From positions 124,001 to 188,000 of the forward strand of contig NC_014935.1 of assembly GCF_000186245.1 (NCBI RefSeq): 64,000 bases of DNA, in the 5' to 3' direction. Positions within the stretch are counted from its first letter, which is position 1. The number at the start of each line of letters is the position of its first letter. The stretch comes from Nitratifractor salsuginis DSM 16511. GTDB lineage: Bacteria; Campylobacterota; Campylobacteria; Campylobacterales; Sulfurovaceae. The notes beneath the pieces were generated by a model. That model was not told where the DNA came from. It saw nothing but the letters and a program-made list of their open reading frames with translations, and did not search any database. The position numbers and the translations under genes were made by a program. Positions 6,221 to 57,771 of this stretch are shown here, piece by piece.

Positions 6221-6330
6221 TTAGTAACCGAGTAACCGAGTAACCGAGTAACCGAGTAACCGAGCAACCGAGTAATGAGTAATCGAATAACCGGATAGTG
6301 AGGAGTGGGGAGTGAGGAGTGAGGAACCGA
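6221..6330. repeat. Tandem array: AGTAACCG, then AGTGAGG units
   Basis: About nine copies of the 8-bp unit AGTAACCG (five exact in a row) grade into a 7-bp AGTGAGG family. The array starts 10 bp before the modB start on the minus strand. It faces an inverted array at 6466-6506, and the 135 bp between them carries no convincing gene. Confidence 0.9.
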
Positions 6331-6465
6331 ATGATGAAAGTAAAATAGGTTTAGCAGGAATTGTGGTCATAATTTTCCCTCTTCTCTTTTTGAAACATAT
6401 TGTAGCACTCTGTTTGGGCCAGCAACGAGAGTTTTTCTTTCCCTTTGACTTTAAATCTCCAACGA

Positions 6466-6506
6466 TTCGGTTACTCGGTTACTCATTACTCGGTTAACCG
6501 GTTATT
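6466..6506. repeat. Tandem array, inverted partner of 6221 array
   Basis: Units CGGTTACT run in the opposite orientation to those at 6221-6330. The modA stop codon (6502-6504) lies inside the array edge, so the repeat begins exactly at the end of modA. Confidence 0.88.
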
Positions 6507-7391: not shown

Positions 7392-8204
7392 TTACTCTTT
7401 TTCCTCTTTGTCCAGAATATAGCAGAAGCGCAGGCCGTAGAGAAAGATGGCCCAGGAGATGTAGATCCAGAGAAAGAAGAAGAGCAGGGTGCTGAGTCCT
7501 CCGTAGATACTAGTGTAGGTCTTGTTGTAGAGGATGTAGAAAAGAAAGCCGCTCTTGGCGAGATACCAGATGAGCGAAGAGATAAAAGAGCTCGCCAGTG
7601 CCGCCCTGGGGGAGATGTGGATCCGGGGCGAAAATTGATAGGCGACGTAGAAAAGCAGCCAGATGATGAGGTAGGGAAAGATGTAATAGACGTGGAGGGT
7701 CCCTGCCCATCCGACCGCTTCCAGGTAGCCTTTGATGGTCCGGGAGAGCCAGAAGGAGCTGCCCAACATGATCGGCAGAAAAAGGAGCAGGAAAAAGTAG
7801 GTCCGAAAGGCTTTGAGGGCGCTGCGCTGAGGGGTTTCGAAAATGTCGTTGACGATGAAGTCGTAATCTTTGAAAAAGAGGATCGCCGCGATGATCACAT
7901 AGCCGATGCCGATATAGCCCAGTCGGTCGGCATTGGCGACGAACTGGTCGATGTAGCGCATAATGGTTTTGGAGTCGGAGGAGACCAGATTCTCGGCGAT
8001 CAGCTCGTGGAGCCGGCCATAGGCGGTGTCGAAGATGGGCATATGGGTAAAGAGCACCAGGAGGATCACCATAAAGGGGATGATGAAAAAGAGGGTGCTC
8101 CAGCTCATACTGGCCGCATAGAAGCCCAGACGCTCGTCGAAGAGCTCTTTAAAGAAGCCTTTGATGAAGAGATAGTACTCTTCTATAATGGATGTTTTTT
8201 TCAT
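7392..8204 (-). CDS. YihY/BrkB family membrane protein
   Basis: 270 aa with about six transmembrane helices. The family is seen in FYAASMSWSTLFFIIPFMVI near the N-terminus, FSPRIHISPRAALASSFISSLIWYLAK in the centre and YKNKTYTSIYGGLS-like YNKTYTSIYGGLSTLLFFFLWIY toward the end. The start is the ATG at 8204 (MKKTSIIEEYY), with GGGAG upstream. A longer in-frame start at 8276 would only add translated repeat sequence. Function is unsettled; the family was once misnamed RNase BN. Confidence 0.88.
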   Translation of the reverse strand: MKKTSIIEEYYLFIKGFFKELFDERLGFYAASMSWSTLFFIIPFMVILLVLFTHMPIFDTAYGRLHELIAENLVSSDSKTIMRYIDQFVANADRLGYIGIGYVIIAAILFFKDYDFIVNDIFETPQRSALKAFRTYFFLLLFLPIMLGSSFWLSRTIKGYLEAVGWAGTLHVYYIFPYLIIWLLFYVAYQFSPRIHISPRAALASSFISSLIWYLAKSGFLFYILYNKTYTSIYGGLSTLLFFFLWIYISWAIFLYGLRFCYILDKEEKE

Positions 8205-8218
8205 AGGGATAAGCTCCC

Positions 8219-8255
8219 TGAGGAATGAGGAATGAGGAATGAGGAATGAGGAATG
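8219..8255. repeat. Tandem array (GAGGAAT)5
   Basis: Five near-perfect copies of the 7-bp unit GAGGAAT immediately upstream of the YihY start. It is the inverted partner of the array at 8663-8698; the two enclose the four-helix-bundle gene. Confidence 0.92.
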
Positions 8256-8262
8256 TCGGTGA

Positions 8263-8279
8263 GCATTGCTTCGCAATGC
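8263..8279. repeat. GCATTGC-ttc-GCAATGC hairpin
   Basis: Perfect 7-bp stem with 3-nt loop, 8 bp from the GAGGAAT array. Hairpins of the same stem sequence or a one-base variant lie beside arrays at 16369-16385 and 19468-19484. Confidence 0.8.
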
Positions 8280-8307
8280 ATTTTATTTAAATAGAAAAGT
8301 TTCAATC

Positions 8308-8682
8308 TCATTTTTGAGAGCCTTTGACCGTTTTGGTGCTGGATATCAGGAGGCGAAGGATTTCATCGAGATCTTTGTAAATGCTTTGGTACATCGTATC
8401 ATCAATATATTGCGATGCGTGCAGAATGCGAATCCAGTATTCGGTTTCGCTTGCTTCTTTTAAAGCGATAGTGAGTTTGTTGAGAAAATCCGCTTTTGAT
8501 TGGGCATATTTGCCTTCGGCAATCAAAGCACCAATTGCAGTTCCGCTTCTTAAAATCTGCTTTGAGAGGACATAATCCCGATGTTTATCCTGTAAGAAAC
8601 GGTTGAGTTTGATAATACGAAGAGAGAAGAGGAAGCTCTTTTCAGAAAGAGGATCGTTCTTTTTCGGTTCCTCATTCCTCAT
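8308..8682 (-). CDS. Four-helix-bundle protein (TIGR02436/S23, Avd-like)
   Basis: 124 aa, no membrane segment. The family pattern is clear: KSFLFSLRIIKL (15-26), SKQILRSGTAIGALIAEG (40-57), SKADFLNKLTIALKEASETE (62-81) and YWIRILHAS. Relatives include proteins in 23S rRNA intervening sequences and Avd, the pentameric partner of reverse transcriptase in diversity-generating retroelements. No reverse transcriptase is in this window. The first residues MRNEEP are encoded by the flanking repeat itself, so the start is uncertain. Confidence 0.85.
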   Translation of the reverse strand: MRNEEPKKNDPLSEKSFLFSLRIIKLNRFLQDKHRDYVLSKQILRSGTAIGALIAEGKYAQSKADFLNKLTIALKEASETEYWIRILHASQYIDDTMYQSIYKDLDEILRLLISSTKTVKGSQK

Positions 8683-8698
8683 TGCTCATTCCTCATTA
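8663..8698. repeat. Tandem array (CTCATTC), inverted partner
   Basis: About four copies of CTCATTC in inverted orientation to 8219-8255. The topA stop codon (8696-8698) is its outer edge, and the inner edge supplies the ATG of the four-helix-bundle gene. Confidence 0.9.
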
Positions 8699-10897
8699 AG
8701 TTTCGGCTTCCGCCGAAACTTTGTGTTTGCACTTGAAGCAGACATAGACATCGCCGCTTTTGAGGTGTTTGACCCCCATCAGGTAGCCGCATTCGGGGCA
8801 TTTTTTGTCCACCGGTTCGAAATTGGCGATGAATTTGCATTTGGGGTAGTTGGCGCAGCCGTAGAAGGTGCCGCGGCGGCCCTGGCGTTCGATGAGTTTG
8901 CCGCCGCACTCGGGGCAGGGGACGGCGAGCTCTTTGGGCGGGGTGAGGGGTTTGGCGTTTTTGCACTTGGGGTAGGCGCTGCAGGCGAGGAATTTGCCCC
9001 GGCGGGAGTTTTTGATCACCATCGGTGCGCCGCATTTGTCGCAGATCTCGTCGGTCTCCTCCGGCTTTTCGGGTTCGGTGCCGTCGATGTTGCGGCTGTA
9101 GCGGCATTTGGGGAAGTTGGAGCAGGCGATGAACTCCCCGTAGCGCCCCTTGCGTTTGAGCAGTTCTGCACCGCACTCGGGGCATTTTTCGCCGATGGGT
9201 TCGGCCATTTTTTGGGAGGGGATGTTCTTTTTGCCTTCGGCAATCTTCTCGATGAAGGGTTGATAAAATTCCCAGAGTACCTTTTGCCAATCCTCTTTGC
9301 CTTCGGCGATCTTGTCGAGGGTCTCTTCCATCCGGGCGGTGAAGTTGCTGTCGACGATCTCGGGGAAGTGCTTTTCTAGCATTTCGATGACGGTGAAGGC
9401 GATCTCGGTGGGGTGGATCCGCTTCTTTTCGATCTCGATGTATTTGCGGTTCTGCAGGATCGTGATGGTGGGGGCATAGGTGCTGGGGCGCCCGATACCC
9501 AGAGATTCGAGCTTTTTGATGAGGCTCGCTTCGTTGTAGCGGGCGGGGGGCTCGGTGAAGTGTTGTTCGGCTTTGATCTCGGTGAGTTCGACCGGCTGCT
9601 CCTCTTTGAGCTCAGGCAGGAGCCGATCTTTTTCATTGTAGCCGGTGATGCGGTAAAAGCCGTCGAAGATCAGTTTGCGGCCGGTGGCTTTGAAGACCGA
9701 TTTCTCTCCGGCAAAGAGGATGGTCTGGGTTTCAAACTCCGCTTCGGTCATTTGGCACGCCAGGAAGCGGTTGTAGATGAGGCGGTAGAGTTTGAGCTCG
9801 TCGGGAGCCAGGTACTTGGCGGCCAGCTTGGGGGTGAATTCGGTCATCGTGGGGCGGATCGCCTCGTGGGCTTCCTGGGCTCCCTTGGCTTTGGAGGCGT
9901 AGAATTTGGGTTTGGCGGGGAGATACTTCTCTCCGAAGTTCTTCTCGATGAATTCCCGTGCTTCAGCCACTGCCTCTTTGGCAAGGTTGAGGCTGTCGGT
10001 CCGCATATAGGTGATGACCCCCATCGTCCCTTTGTGGGTCTTGACCCCTTCGTAGAGTTTCTGGGCGACCATCATCGTCTTTTTGGGGGAGAAACCCAGC
10101 TGGGTCGAAGCGGCCTGCTGGAGGGTCGAAGTCATAAAGGGGGGCGGGGTTTTGCTCTTGCGCCGGGCGGTTTCGATGGAGGCGACCTTGAAGGATTCTT
10201 CCTTGGCCGATTCGACGATCTTGTTCGCCTCTTCGCCGTTTTTGAGGGTCATTTTCTCGATCTTTTTGCCCTCGAAGCTGTAGATATCGGCATCGACCGT
10301 CTTGTCGAAGATTCCCTTGATACTCCAATACTCTTCGGGTTTGAAGGCTTTGATCTCCCGCTCCCGGTCGACGACGATCTTGAGCGCCGCGCTCTGGACC
10401 CGGCCGGCGGAGAGGCCCTTTTGGATCTTGTTCGCCAGCAGGGGGGAGAGCTTGTAGCCTACGATCCGGTCGAGCAGGCGCCGGGTCTGCTGGGCATCGA
10501 CGCTCTGCATATCGATCCGTCTGGGATTCTCCAGGGCGTGTTGGATGGCGCTCTTGGTGATCTCGTGGAAGACAATCCTCGGCAGCTCTTCGGGGTCCTT
10601 GCCGATGGCCTTGGCGATGTGGTAGCCGATCGCTTCTCCCTCGCGGTCCTCATCGGTCGCGATGTAGACGGTCTCTGCCTCTTTGGCCAGCTTTTTGAGC
10701 TCTTTGACCGTGGGGGAAGCCTCTCTGGGGACGGTGTATTTGGGGATGAATTTCCCCTCCTCGACGGTAATGCCGAAGCTGCTTTTGGGCAGATCCCGGA
10801 TGTGTCCTTTGGAGGCGACGACTTTGTAATCCTTGCCCAGGAAGTTGCTGATGGTCCGTGCCTTGGCCGGTGATTCGACGATAATGAGATTTTTCAT
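8696..10897 (-). CDS. topA: DNA topoisomerase I
   Basis: 733 aa type IA topoisomerase relaxing negative supercoils. The TOPRIM domain starts at MKNLIIVESPAKARTI with the acidic TDEDREGEAI motif (81-90), and the catalytic tyrosine is Tyr297 in GVITYMRTDS. Four C-terminal zinc ribbons follow (CPEC/CDKC/CPEC/CPEC with paired CxxxxPKC or CFKC). A minus-strand extended -10 (TGCTACAAT, 10930-10938) precedes the start. Its stop codon is the first base of a tandem-repeat array. Confidence 0.98.
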   Translation of the reverse strand: MKNLIIVESPAKARTISNFLGKDYKVVASKGHIRDLPKSSFGITVEEGKFIPKYTVPREASPTVKELKKLAKEAETVYIATDEDREGEAIGYHIAKAIGKDPEELPRIVFHEITKSAIQHALENPRRIDMQSVDAQQTRRLLDRIVGYKLSPLLANKIQKGLSAGRVQSAALKIVVDREREIKAFKPEEYWSIKGIFDKTVDADIYSFEGKKIEKMTLKNGEEANKIVESAKEESFKVASIETARRKSKTPPPFMTSTLQQAASTQLGFSPKKTMMVAQKLYEGVKTHKGTMGVITYMRTDSLNLAKEAVAEAREFIEKNFGEKYLPAKPKFYASKAKGAQEAHEAIRPTMTEFTPKLAAKYLAPDELKLYRLIYNRFLACQMTEAEFETQTILFAGEKSVFKATGRKLIFDGFYRITGYNEKDRLLPELKEEQPVELTEIKAEQHFTEPPARYNEASLIKKLESLGIGRPSTYAPTITILQNRKYIEIEKKRIHPTEIAFTVIEMLEKHFPEIVDSNFTARMEETLDKIAEGKEDWQKVLWEFYQPFIEKIAEGKKNIPSQKMAEPIGEKCPECGAELLKRKGRYGEFIACSNFPKCRYSRNIDGTEPEKPEETDEICDKCGAPMVIKNSRRGKFLACSAYPKCKNAKPLTPPKELAVPCPECGGKLIERQGRRGTFYGCANYPKCKFIANFEPVDKKCPECGYLMGVKHLKSGDVYVCFKCKHKVSAEAET

Positions 10898-13842: not shown

Positions 13843-13882
13843 CTCATTCTCCATTCTCCATTTTCAATTCTCAATTCCTGAG
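13843..13882. repeat. Tandem array, ATTCTCC/ATTCTCA units
   Basis: About five 7-bp units (CATTCTC, CCATTTT, CAATTCT). The minus-strand copy reads GGAGAATG, so each unit offers a Shine-Dalgarno and a start codon. It touches the CTGAGAAC-cttt-GTTCTCAG hairpin (13878-13897) that covers the stop codon of the radical SAM gene. Confidence 0.85.
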
Positions 13883-16309: not shown

Positions 16310-16337
16310 GAAGATAGAAATGAGAAATGAGAAATTA
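16304..16337. repeat. Tandem array, GAGAAAT/GATAGAAA units
   Basis: About four 7-bp units overlapping the rpe stop codon. Inverted partner at 16391-16424. Between them lie hairpins GTCGCC-gtt-GGCGAC (16342-16356) and GCATTGC-aaa-GCAATGC (16369-16385). Confidence 0.88.
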
Positions 16338-16368
16338 TGGGGTCGCCGTTGGCGACGATTAAAAAATA

Positions 16369-16385
16369 GCATTGCAAAGCAATGC
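16369..16385. repeat. GCATTGC-aaa-GCAATGC hairpin
   Basis: Same 7-bp stem as the hairpin at 8263-8279, with a different loop. It lies at the centre of the rpe-trpF element. Confidence 0.8.
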
Positions 16386-16390
16386 CCACA

Positions 16391-16424
16391 TCAATTTCTA
16401 TTTTCTATTTTCTATTTTCTAATT
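16391..16424. repeat. Tandem array (TTTCTAT), inverted partner
   Basis: Four near-perfect copies of TTTCTAT or TTTTCTA, inverted relative to 16304-16337. Confidence 0.9.
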
Positions 16425-20984: not shown

Positions 20985-21054
20985 ATTACTAGTTACTAGT
21001 TTCTCAGTTACTCGGTTACTCATTACTCGGTTACTCGGTTCCTCATTATTCATT
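20985..21054. repeat. Tandem array: ACTAGTT, CGGTTACT, ATTCCTC units
   Basis: Two ACTAGTT units, then about five CGGTTACT units, then CTCATTATT. Three families are joined head to tail in one array. It lies in the 265-bp gap between yidD and the nuo promoter. Confidence 0.88.
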
Positions 21055-41000: not shown

Positions 41001-41042
41001 GTAACTAGAAACTAGTAACTAGTAACCGAGTAATGAGCAACA
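40997..41042. repeat. Tandem array: ACTAGTA and AGTAACCG units
   Basis: About three ACTAGTA-type units followed by AGTAACCG/AGTAATG. It is the inverse composition of the array at 20985-21054, with the same two families joined in reverse order and orientation. It starts at the prenyltransferase stop codon. Confidence 0.88.
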
Positions 41043-56766: not shown

Positions 56767-57621
56767 ATGGAAGAGTATGTCGACGACTTTCTTGATTACC
56801 TCTTTCGTATCCGGGGTTACAGCGAGAGGACGGTAGCTACCTACGAACTCCCCCTGCGTCAAATGCTTCAGTACCACCGTTTGAAGCGGGAAGGGAAGCA
56901 GCTCATCCTGGATATTATGCCCCTGCGCCGTCGTATCGCTTCCAACACTCCAAGAACCGTCGCCAAAAAACTCAGTGCCGTCCGATCTTTTGTGCGTTAT
57001 CTTCAGGATCAGCGCAATCTATCGATCCTACTGGAGGGCGATGAATCGGTCAAAGTCCCCCGGACCCTTCCCAAACCGATCGAAGAGCGCTATATCCGTG
57101 AAGTGCTGGAGGCTGCCGATCCGACAGAACGGCTCATTTTGGGGCTGCTCTACGGGATGGGGCTGCGGATCTCGGAATTGGCGGGGCTTCGCAGGGAACA
57201 GATCGACCGGGAGTGGATCCGGATCCACGGCAAAGGGGGCAAGACCCGTCAATTGCCCCTCCCGCAAGCGGTCCTTCAAATGCTGGATCACTATCTAGCA
57301 CTTCATCCGGCGGGGGTCTATCTCTTTGAGAAGGGGAAAGCCCCCCTCTCTGCGGCGCAGATACGTTACCGGGTCCAGAAACTCTTCCGCTCCCGAGGGA
57401 TCAAAGCCACCCCCCACCAGCTGCGCCATTCCTTTGCCACTCATCTGCTCGATCACGGAGCACGGATCAGCGATGTGAGCGAACTGCTGGGGCATGCCAG
57501 TATGGCGACGACCCAGATCTACACCCAGCTGGGGAGCAGCCGGAAGCTTCGGGAGTATATGAAGGCACACCCACTAGGGAATGAGGAATTAGGAATGAGG
57601 AGTGAGGAACCGAGTGATTGA
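56767..57621 (+). CDS. Xer-type tyrosine recombinase
   Basis: 284 aa with an N-terminal SAM-like core-binding domain and C-terminal catalytic domain. Catalytic set: Arg134 (GLRISEL), Lys156/159 (HGKGGKTR), His217 and Arg220 (HQLRHSFATHL), His243 (GHASMATTQ) and Tyr252 (IYTQL). It is shorter than the XerH of Helicobacter (about 360 aa) and closer to XerC/XerD in size. The last 14 residues (GNEELGMRSEEPSD) are encoded by tandem-repeat DNA. GGAG precedes the ATG. It could be the chromosome-dimer recombinase or an accessory one. Confidence 0.9.
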   Translation: MEEYVDDFLDYLFRIRGYSERTVATYELPLRQMLQYHRLKREGKQLILDIMPLRRRIASNTPRTVAKKLSAVRSFVRYLQDQRNLSILLEGDESVKVPRTLPKPIEERYIREVLEAADPTERLILGLLYGMGLRISELAGLRREQIDREWIRIHGKGGKTRQLPLPQAVLQMLDHYLALHPAGVYLFEKGKAPLSAAQIRYRVQKLFRSRGIKATPHQLRHSFATHLLDHGARISDVSELLGHASMATTQIYTQLGSSRKLREYMKAHPLGNEELGMRSEEPSD

Positions 57622-57651
57622 GAATGGTGAATGGAGAATTTTTGAATGAGG
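57577..57651. repeat. Tandem array: GAATGAGG, GAGAATGG units
   Basis: About eight units; GAATGAGG/AATTAGG units change to GAGAATGGTGAATGG units. It overlaps the last 14 codons of the Xer gene and runs 30 bp past its stop. Confidence 0.88.
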
Positions 57652-57688
57652 AAAAGGCTAATTTGGCAATAGCACAGAACACGAAATT

Positions 57689-57725
57689 CTTGGGACTTGA
57701 GGGCCGGAGGTCCGTGCTTGCGACT
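57689..57725. repeat. Dispersed AGTCGCAAG/hairpin repeat, copy 3 (inverted)
   Basis: Reverse complement of the repeats at 3499 and 10942: GTCGCAAGCACGG, an imperfect GGAC/GGCC-type hairpin, then CCCTCAAGTC. Confidence 0.8.
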
Positions 57726-57732
57726 GAATCCT

Positions 57733-57771
57733 CCCAATGACCAATGACTATTGACCAATGACCGAAATGTC
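57733..57771. repeat. Tandem array, ACCAATG family
   Basis: Five units (CCAATGA, CTATTGA variants). It encodes the end of MurB (VIGQ-stop) on the minus strand. Strikingly like the ATTGGTC repeats common between cyanobacterial genes. Confidence 0.9.

Follow-up and report, generated by a model that had tools for sequence, protein, structure and literature searches.

A solitary S23 gene between inverted heptamer arrays in Nitratifractor salsuginis: a probable member of a widespread group of mobile elements akin to 23S rRNA intervening sequences

Introduction

What is a gene for a four-helix-bundle protein doing between two inverted arrays of a seven-nucleotide repeat, in the junction between topA and yihY? 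To our knowledge, solitary S23 (four-helix-bundle) genes occur in very many bacterial genomes without an assigned role, and we know of no source given for heptamer arrays, which have been described piecemeal for decades. A preliminary description of this locus proposed that the S23 gene encodes the factor that makes or moves the repeats, possibly with a reverse transcriptase or a recombinase encoded elsewhere. A link between gene and arrays offers a testable explanation for both: a mobile element resembling the intervening sequences (IVSs) of 23S rRNA and living between operon genes.

Results

Architecture of the element

The window is the 64,000-nucleotide stretch of N. salsuginis DSM 16511 that was analysed (NC_014935.1, positions 124,001 to 188,000; G000:C1:124001-188000), and it belongs to a closed genome of 2,101,285 bp, here called G000. 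The element and its neighbours are laid out as follows.

7392..8207, minus strand: yihY/brkB-type gene, downstream of the insertion, on the same strand as the S23 gene
8219..8697, minus strand: whole element, array to array; in the predicted RNA fold both arrays form a 29-bp terminal stem
8219..8255, minus strand: 3' (downstream) heptamer array, (TGAGGAA)5.3 on the plus strand, which is (TTCCTCA)n in gene sense; 100% matches
8263..8279, no strand: GC hairpin GCATTGC-TTC-GCAATGC inside the 3' end of the element, seen in the letters and present in the predicted RNA fold
8308..8682, minus strand: S23/four-helix-bundle gene (PF05635, TIGR02436), 124 aa, identified by profile matches and the PDB relative 2RLD
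8668..8697, minus strand: 5' (upstream) heptamer array, (TTCCTCA)4.3 on the plus strand, which is (TGAGGAA)n in gene sense; 91% matches
8696..10897, minus strand: topA, upstream of the insertion, on the same strand as the S23 gene

The S23 protein scores 98.7 bits against PF05635 (cut-off 33.8) and 106.3 bits against TIGR02436 (cut-off 24), and its nearest solved structure is 2RLD, which has five chains (E 1.7e-33). S23 is the sole gene within the element, and the GAGGAAT-type arrays on its left and right are inverted copies of each other; both this arrangement and the GC hairpin inside one end had been recognized in the preliminary description. The latter had also stated that the first six codons are read from the array. 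The gene does begin in the array, with five codons (ATG AGG AAT GAG GAA) rather than six, and the 5' array provides the start codon together with a GAGG Shine-Dalgarno-like motif. On the other side, the yihY/brkB-type reading frame stays open further upstream, across the array, up to 8276. The RNA that spans the element (8205-8705) has a predicted minimum free energy of -143.5 kcal/mol, with a z-score of -6.9. Purifying selection acts on the S23 protein (dN/dS 0.04-0.26), which therefore does something.

Eleven heptamer arrays were observed in the window against 0-1 in shuffled window sequence, and periods other than 7 showed no enrichment, which rules out chance or composition as the source of the arrays. 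At 6223-6504 two inverted GAGTAACC-type arrays on the outside enclose about 200 bp that contain a GAGTGAG array and no long ORF, and this stretch looks like an S23-less element. More intergenic heptamer or octamer clusters lie at 57578-57763, 20986-21052, 13845-13877, 16316-16421 and 41003-41026; such clusters often consist of several different units in series, with GC hairpins between them.

S23 loci of the N. salsuginis genome

A search of G000 for the S23 family gave five loci, one of them broken. All five are flanked by inverted arrays, each with a different unit: GAGGAAT, GGATTTT, GAGTAACC (8 nt), GTTGTGC/GTTGAGT and CGCAAGT. For every one of them, the inverted similarity of the flanks exceeds the 99th percentile of control ORFs. 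Under a strict test, matched inverted arrays on both sides were found for 3/5 S23 genes and for 2/386 other ORFs in the 464 kb sampled; arrays on both sides occurred at 7/386 of these ORFs. The two matched-inverted cases fall outside the window, in which S23 is thus the only gene enclosed by such a pair, as had been claimed. Among small-ORF controls, inverted matched arrays flanked 1/92. The sampled 464 kb of G000 contain 82 arrays with some 29 types of unit, almost all of period 7, and the majority enclose no S23. As read from these loci, the element has S23 as its one gene, enclosed by two inverted arrays whose unit of 7 nt (rarely 8 nt) varies between elements.

One S23 gene (L005/L006, G000:C1:1142720-1143032) is frame-broken and retains both arrays; it adjoins what we take, by eye from the flank, to be a fabI-like gene. 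Very long perfect arrays were seen at L048:13307-13412 (AACGACC, 106 bp) and L050:4201-4393 (AACTCTC, 193 bp), with no S23 near in the sample.

Survey across phyla

The S23 loci of relatives are likewise flanked by arrays, with new units. A peptide-pattern search that was blind to arrays returned 80 S23 loci from Gammaproteobacteria, Bacteroidota, Verrucomicrobiota, Planctomycetota, Desulfobacterota, Clostridia, Lentisphaerota and others. In this set, the density of period-7 arrays is 0.735 per kb up to 300 bp from S23 and 0.074 per kb beyond; only period 7 is enriched, periods 6, 8 and 9 being flat or tiny, and the similarity between the two flanks is inverted rather than direct. The final deduplicated survey comprised 126 loci, of which 116 were measurable (28 from Campylobacterota and 88 others). 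Inverted-similar flanks were found at 66% of the 116 loci versus 1.7% of control windows (p 4e-61), and a period-7 signal on both sides at 50% versus 0.2% (p 1e-50). PIN-domain genes, taken from the same relatives as a control family of similar size that is also accessory, gave 0/24 versus 20/28 for S23. The expectation that arrays would be enriched around homologues was thus borne out in many phyla. When both arrays exceeded a strict threshold (29 loci), the units were inverted-matched in 17 and direct-matched in 5. About a quarter of S23 loci gave no period-7 signal by the measures of the final survey; they may have decayed, may be of a different type or may lie under the detection limit.

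The 5' array is G-rich in gene sense for 58/67 distinct units (58 versus 9), so that arrays are oriented relative to the S23 gene, in all phyla. Median array length is 4.3-4.6 units. The sets compared contain 62-76 distinct units, and what is conserved is the period and the inverted order alone. No Rfam match was obtained at 12 S23 loci, including all five of G000, and a 23S motif was absent near the S23 loci tested.

Some loci add to this picture. On two cyanobacterial plasmids (L178, L185) S23 is antisense to both neighbours, which are ribonucleotide reductase genes in one case and a toxin-secretion ABC transporter in the other; the element is therefore not always in operon sense. Identical junctions are reused as insertion sites in several genera (L007, L009, L011, L012, L013; L008, L014), one presumably between sugar-nucleotide genes and another apparently between two succinyl-CoA synthetase genes, as named by eye, and this recurrence suggests preferred targets. 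S23 is rare in phage records (2/50,697), so that phage spread is not an obvious route.

Junctions compared within the genus

At the topA-yihY junction, three species carry S23, with the units GAGGAAT, GAGAAAT and GAGGAGT; in each of them the two arms share the unit. In four species this junction has other arrays and no S23, and in two it is short and array-free; the junction is clean in G001 and G011, both of which bear S23 elsewhere. Two outcomes had been named in the preliminary description as counting against its proposal, a lack of array enrichment around homologues and a conserved topA-gene-yihY order without arrays in relatives, and neither was seen. Two more junctions lie between genes that we take to be trpB and pepA, and rimO and tilS, from their flanking proteins. 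At trpB-pepA, the S23 units are CGCAAGT (G000, G001), AACTAGT (G007, G009, G010) and ACGTGCT (G005), a bare inverted-array hairpin is present in G002 and G006, and the junction is clean in the S23-less G003, G004 and G012. At rimO-tilS, the units are GAGTAACC, AACTAGT or GAGGAAT.

Thus, at three junctions of the genus the S23 lineage differs between species, and each lineage has its own unit in both arms. In the S23 tree, the rimO copies with GAGGAAT group with the topA copies carrying GAGGAAT or GAGGAGT (support 97/98) and not with the rimO copies carrying AACTAGT, which indicates that, over such spans of divergence, a unit stays with its S23 lineage and junctions are re-occupied. Pairs of S23 from different sites with at least 70% identity have a unit in common in 29% of cases versus 3% under the null (p 0.002). 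This agreement between lineage and unit is gone below about 70% identity, so that unit turnover must be fast.

Presence and absence in cyanobacterial plasmids

Nine related Nostoc plasmids were compared at three adjacent junctions. S23 and both arrays are jointly present or jointly absent at sites that are otherwise 92-96% identical. The junction between the 441- and 288-gene measures 3 nt in five plasmids and holds array, S23 and inverted array in three (pNsp_a, pC052_D, pNPM1). At the junction next to it, an insertion is found only in pNsp_c, with another S23 and the unit GGGAAAA. Several plasmids have S23-less inverted-array pairs with hairpin-rich spacers at the first junction, and in pNPM1 the S23 gene is itself interrupted by an S23-less array pair. 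Empty sites are array-free, with 3-nt or overlapping junctions. A similar comparison is offered by Picosynechococcus, in which strain PCC 7003 has an array-flanked S23 between cas10 and cmr3 and strain PCC 7002 has 12 nt there. We conclude from both genera that gene and arrays arrive jointly, and that arrays alone are also able to arrive. Empty sites, which the preliminary description had suggested looking for in close relatives, are thus seen in Nostoc, in Picosynechococcus and at the junctions of the genus. A possible target duplication measures 5 bp (TTCTA) at one Nostoc site and 0-2 bp at the pNPM1 insertion; no target-site duplication of constant size was found at the insertions compared, whose ends are not sharply fixed. 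S23 genes also lie within CRISPR operons on cyanobacterial plasmids (L180, L182, L183), between cas6 and cas4 or between cas10 and cmr3.

Judged from these alignments, junctions between operon genes gain or lose the S23 gene and its two arrays as a whole. By the same comparison, derivatives made of array, hairpin-rich spacer and inverted array exist without S23, and they insert as well.

Array load of genomes

Among 16 related and partly sampled genomes, those without S23 hold 4 arrays in 719 kb and those with S23 hold 128 in 995 kb, and array density follows S23 copy number with a Spearman coefficient of 0.81; since the genomes are related and sampled, this correlation is support and not proof. 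In the genus, one array was found in 219 kb over three S23-less species, versus 13-30 per 100 kb in G000, G001, G005 and G009. Across the genomes sampled, array load therefore rises with S23 copy number.

Discussion

A probable mobile element with heptamer-array ends

We read the window locus as a copy of a mobile element that is widespread and akin to IVSs, with heptamer arrays as its ends and the mechanism proposed below, and we give this reading a probability of about 0.7. In a transcript, the two arrays would pair into a double-stranded stem of about 30 bp, which RNase III would cut as in the 23S rRNA IVS; such a cut, extended here to mRNA, would make an insertion between cistrons little harmful. 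The S23 protein is probably a ring of five four-helix bundles. With less certainty, this pentamer would bind the array, perhaps with one subunit per heptamer, in hairpin RNA or in single-stranded DNA, and once bound would promote insertion of the element and of its S23-less derivatives. Copying would be done by host polymerases and not by a transposase or reverse transcriptase encoded in the element, which is again a less certain step. A role of the S23 protein in making or moving the repeats is a hypothesis, and the case for it draws on the correlation between copy number and arrays, on the joint travel of gene and arrays and on purifying selection.

A wider claim is tentative, and we would put it somewhat below even odds: that there is a class of mobile elements whose ends are recognized not by sequence but by a period of 7 nt and by inverted order, that the S23 ring recognizes or writes the arrays, that intergenic heptamer arrays (STRR, TAACTGA and others) are footprints of such elements, and that rRNA IVSs and S23 genes in cas operons are special cases.

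Alternative explanations

The main rival to insertion promoted by S23 holds that the inverted-array hairpin is itself the moving unit, through host replication or recombination, and that S23 is carried along or serves RNA processing only. This rather unlikely but serious alternative gains from the S23-less array pairs that insert alone, in the pNPM1 S23 gene, at the first Nostoc junction and at the trpB junction of G002 and G006, from S23 having no known recombinase fold and from the report that the S23p of the Coxiella IVS is probably not expressed (PMC4990558). It sits poorly with the purifying selection on the protein, with the near absence of arrays from S23-less genomes and with an array strand orientation to the gene that is fixed across phyla. 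A host- or IS-encoded enzyme, either a Y1/RAYT-type transposase or a reverse transcriptase, could instead move the element in trans. RAYTs move REP hairpins, and the reverse transcriptase of diversity-generating retroelements (DGRs) works with Avd, of which S23 is a distant relative; GC hairpins occur in array neighbourhoods, and G000 has seven identical IS200/IS605-type TnpA genes (L275-L281) and two RAYT-like genes. However, the closed G000 genome has no match to RVT_1 (PF00078), and the reverse transcriptase partner that had been suggested is accordingly not supported. Y1_Tnp has no match in G005, G002, G006, G007 or G010, all with S23 elements, G005 being array-rich all the same, and the S23-less G003 has a RAYT, yet no arrays in 160 kb. 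A Y1/RAYT-type transposase thus fails to track the elements across genomes and is unlikely as a general partner; we regard movement in trans by either enzyme as improbable.

It may also be asked whether slippage-prone intergenic satellites were there before and S23 merely lands in array-rich regions, as the common S23-free arrays of G000 (82 in 464 kb) might indicate. Landing within an array should leave direct flanks, whereas the observed flanks are inverted; moreover, empty sites are array-free, both at the 3-nt or overlapping Nostoc junctions and at the clean junctions of S23-less species, and so few small-ORF controls of G000 (1/92) have inverted matched arrays. The inverted flank order and the array-free empty sites contradict this explanation, which is highly improbable. 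Old, fixed S23 insertions whose two arrays are rewritten jointly, by gene conversion or hairpin-templated repair, are unlikely as the whole account, less so than movement in trans. At the topA site, the S23 genes of G000 and G010 are sisters in the 28-row tree, and the difference between their units, GAGGAAT and GAGGAGT, runs through every copy in both arrays; at the trpB site, S23 proteins that are 72-79% identical have CGCAAGT or AACTAGT, matched in both arms. Against it, identity between S23 lineages at the same site is often lower (54-68%) than between S23 from different sites that share a unit (70-76%), which favours replacement by another element. Array rewriting and element replacement may both act.

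If S23 genes and heptamer arrays are tied together as an IVS-like mobile element, the 23S rRNA IVS becomes one among the landing sites of a wider class, and S23 genes in CRISPR operons are suggested to be insertions. A clear question for biochemistry follows: whether heptamer arrays are bound, and moved, by the S23 pentamer.

Comparison with known systems

Avd, the accessory protein family of DGRs (NF033474), is a distant sequence relative of S23 and shares its fold class, a four-helix bundle forming a pentamer. The window S23 differs in scoring only 19.6 on NF033474 (cut-off 80) and in sitting in a genome without a reverse transcriptase; no match to the Avd model exceeded the cut-off in 20 genomes. 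The arrays resemble the STRR of cyanobacteria and the TAACTGA arrays, which are also intergenic tandem 7-nt units. TAACTGA heptamer arrays are described from Beggiatoaceae, cyanobacteria and Bacteroidetes, with a mobile repeat-binding protein suggested as one possibility (PMC4679880); that paper mentions neither S23 nor a four-helix protein, and its arrays are direct, not inverted around a gene. Unlike STRR and TAACTGA repeats as described, the arrays here are the ends of the S23 element or of its derivatives. As with MITEs and REPINs, short inverted-repeat elements that lack a gene occur alongside a relative that has one, and they insert between genes; unlike them, the S23 element has ends without a conserved sequence and encodes no transposase. 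Genes annotated 23S_rRNA_IVP are on record in cas loci (PMC3936711), and the S23 family is likewise found between cas4, cas6 and cmr genes. The S23 between cas10 and cmr3 in Picosynechococcus is flanked by arrays and absent from PCC 7002, which suggests an insertion rather than a CRISPR function.

In the searched literature, which leaves most subscription journals outside, we found no paper that ties solitary S23 genes to inverted heptamer arrays, and within it heptamers in an IVS are noted in one species (Coxiella) and not linked to other S23 genes; the novelty of the link is accordingly provisional.

The closest known system is the 23S rRNA IVS of Coxiella burnetii, which has an S23p ORF, a 28-bp terminal stem, a dG of -143.26 kcal/mol and excision by RNase III (PMC4990558). 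Its 5' part carries tandem heptamers (GACAGAT) before the ORF, whose count varies among strains, and the IVS is sporadic in distribution and called selfish (PMC4990558). The window element likewise has one S23/PF05635 ORF, tandem heptamers ahead of it, terminal inverted repeats giving an RNA stem of 28-29 bp, and a similar size and folding energy. In contrast to the IVS, it sits between topA and yihY and outside any 23S rRNA gene, and solitary S23 elements occur in many phyla with tens of units, have both arms made of one heptamer array, and show S23-less derivatives and visible presence and absence. A location inside rRNA is the one defining feature of an IVS that these elements lack, so that they are not strict IVSs and yet work like them, and by this analogy we take solitary S23 elements to belong to the IVS class.
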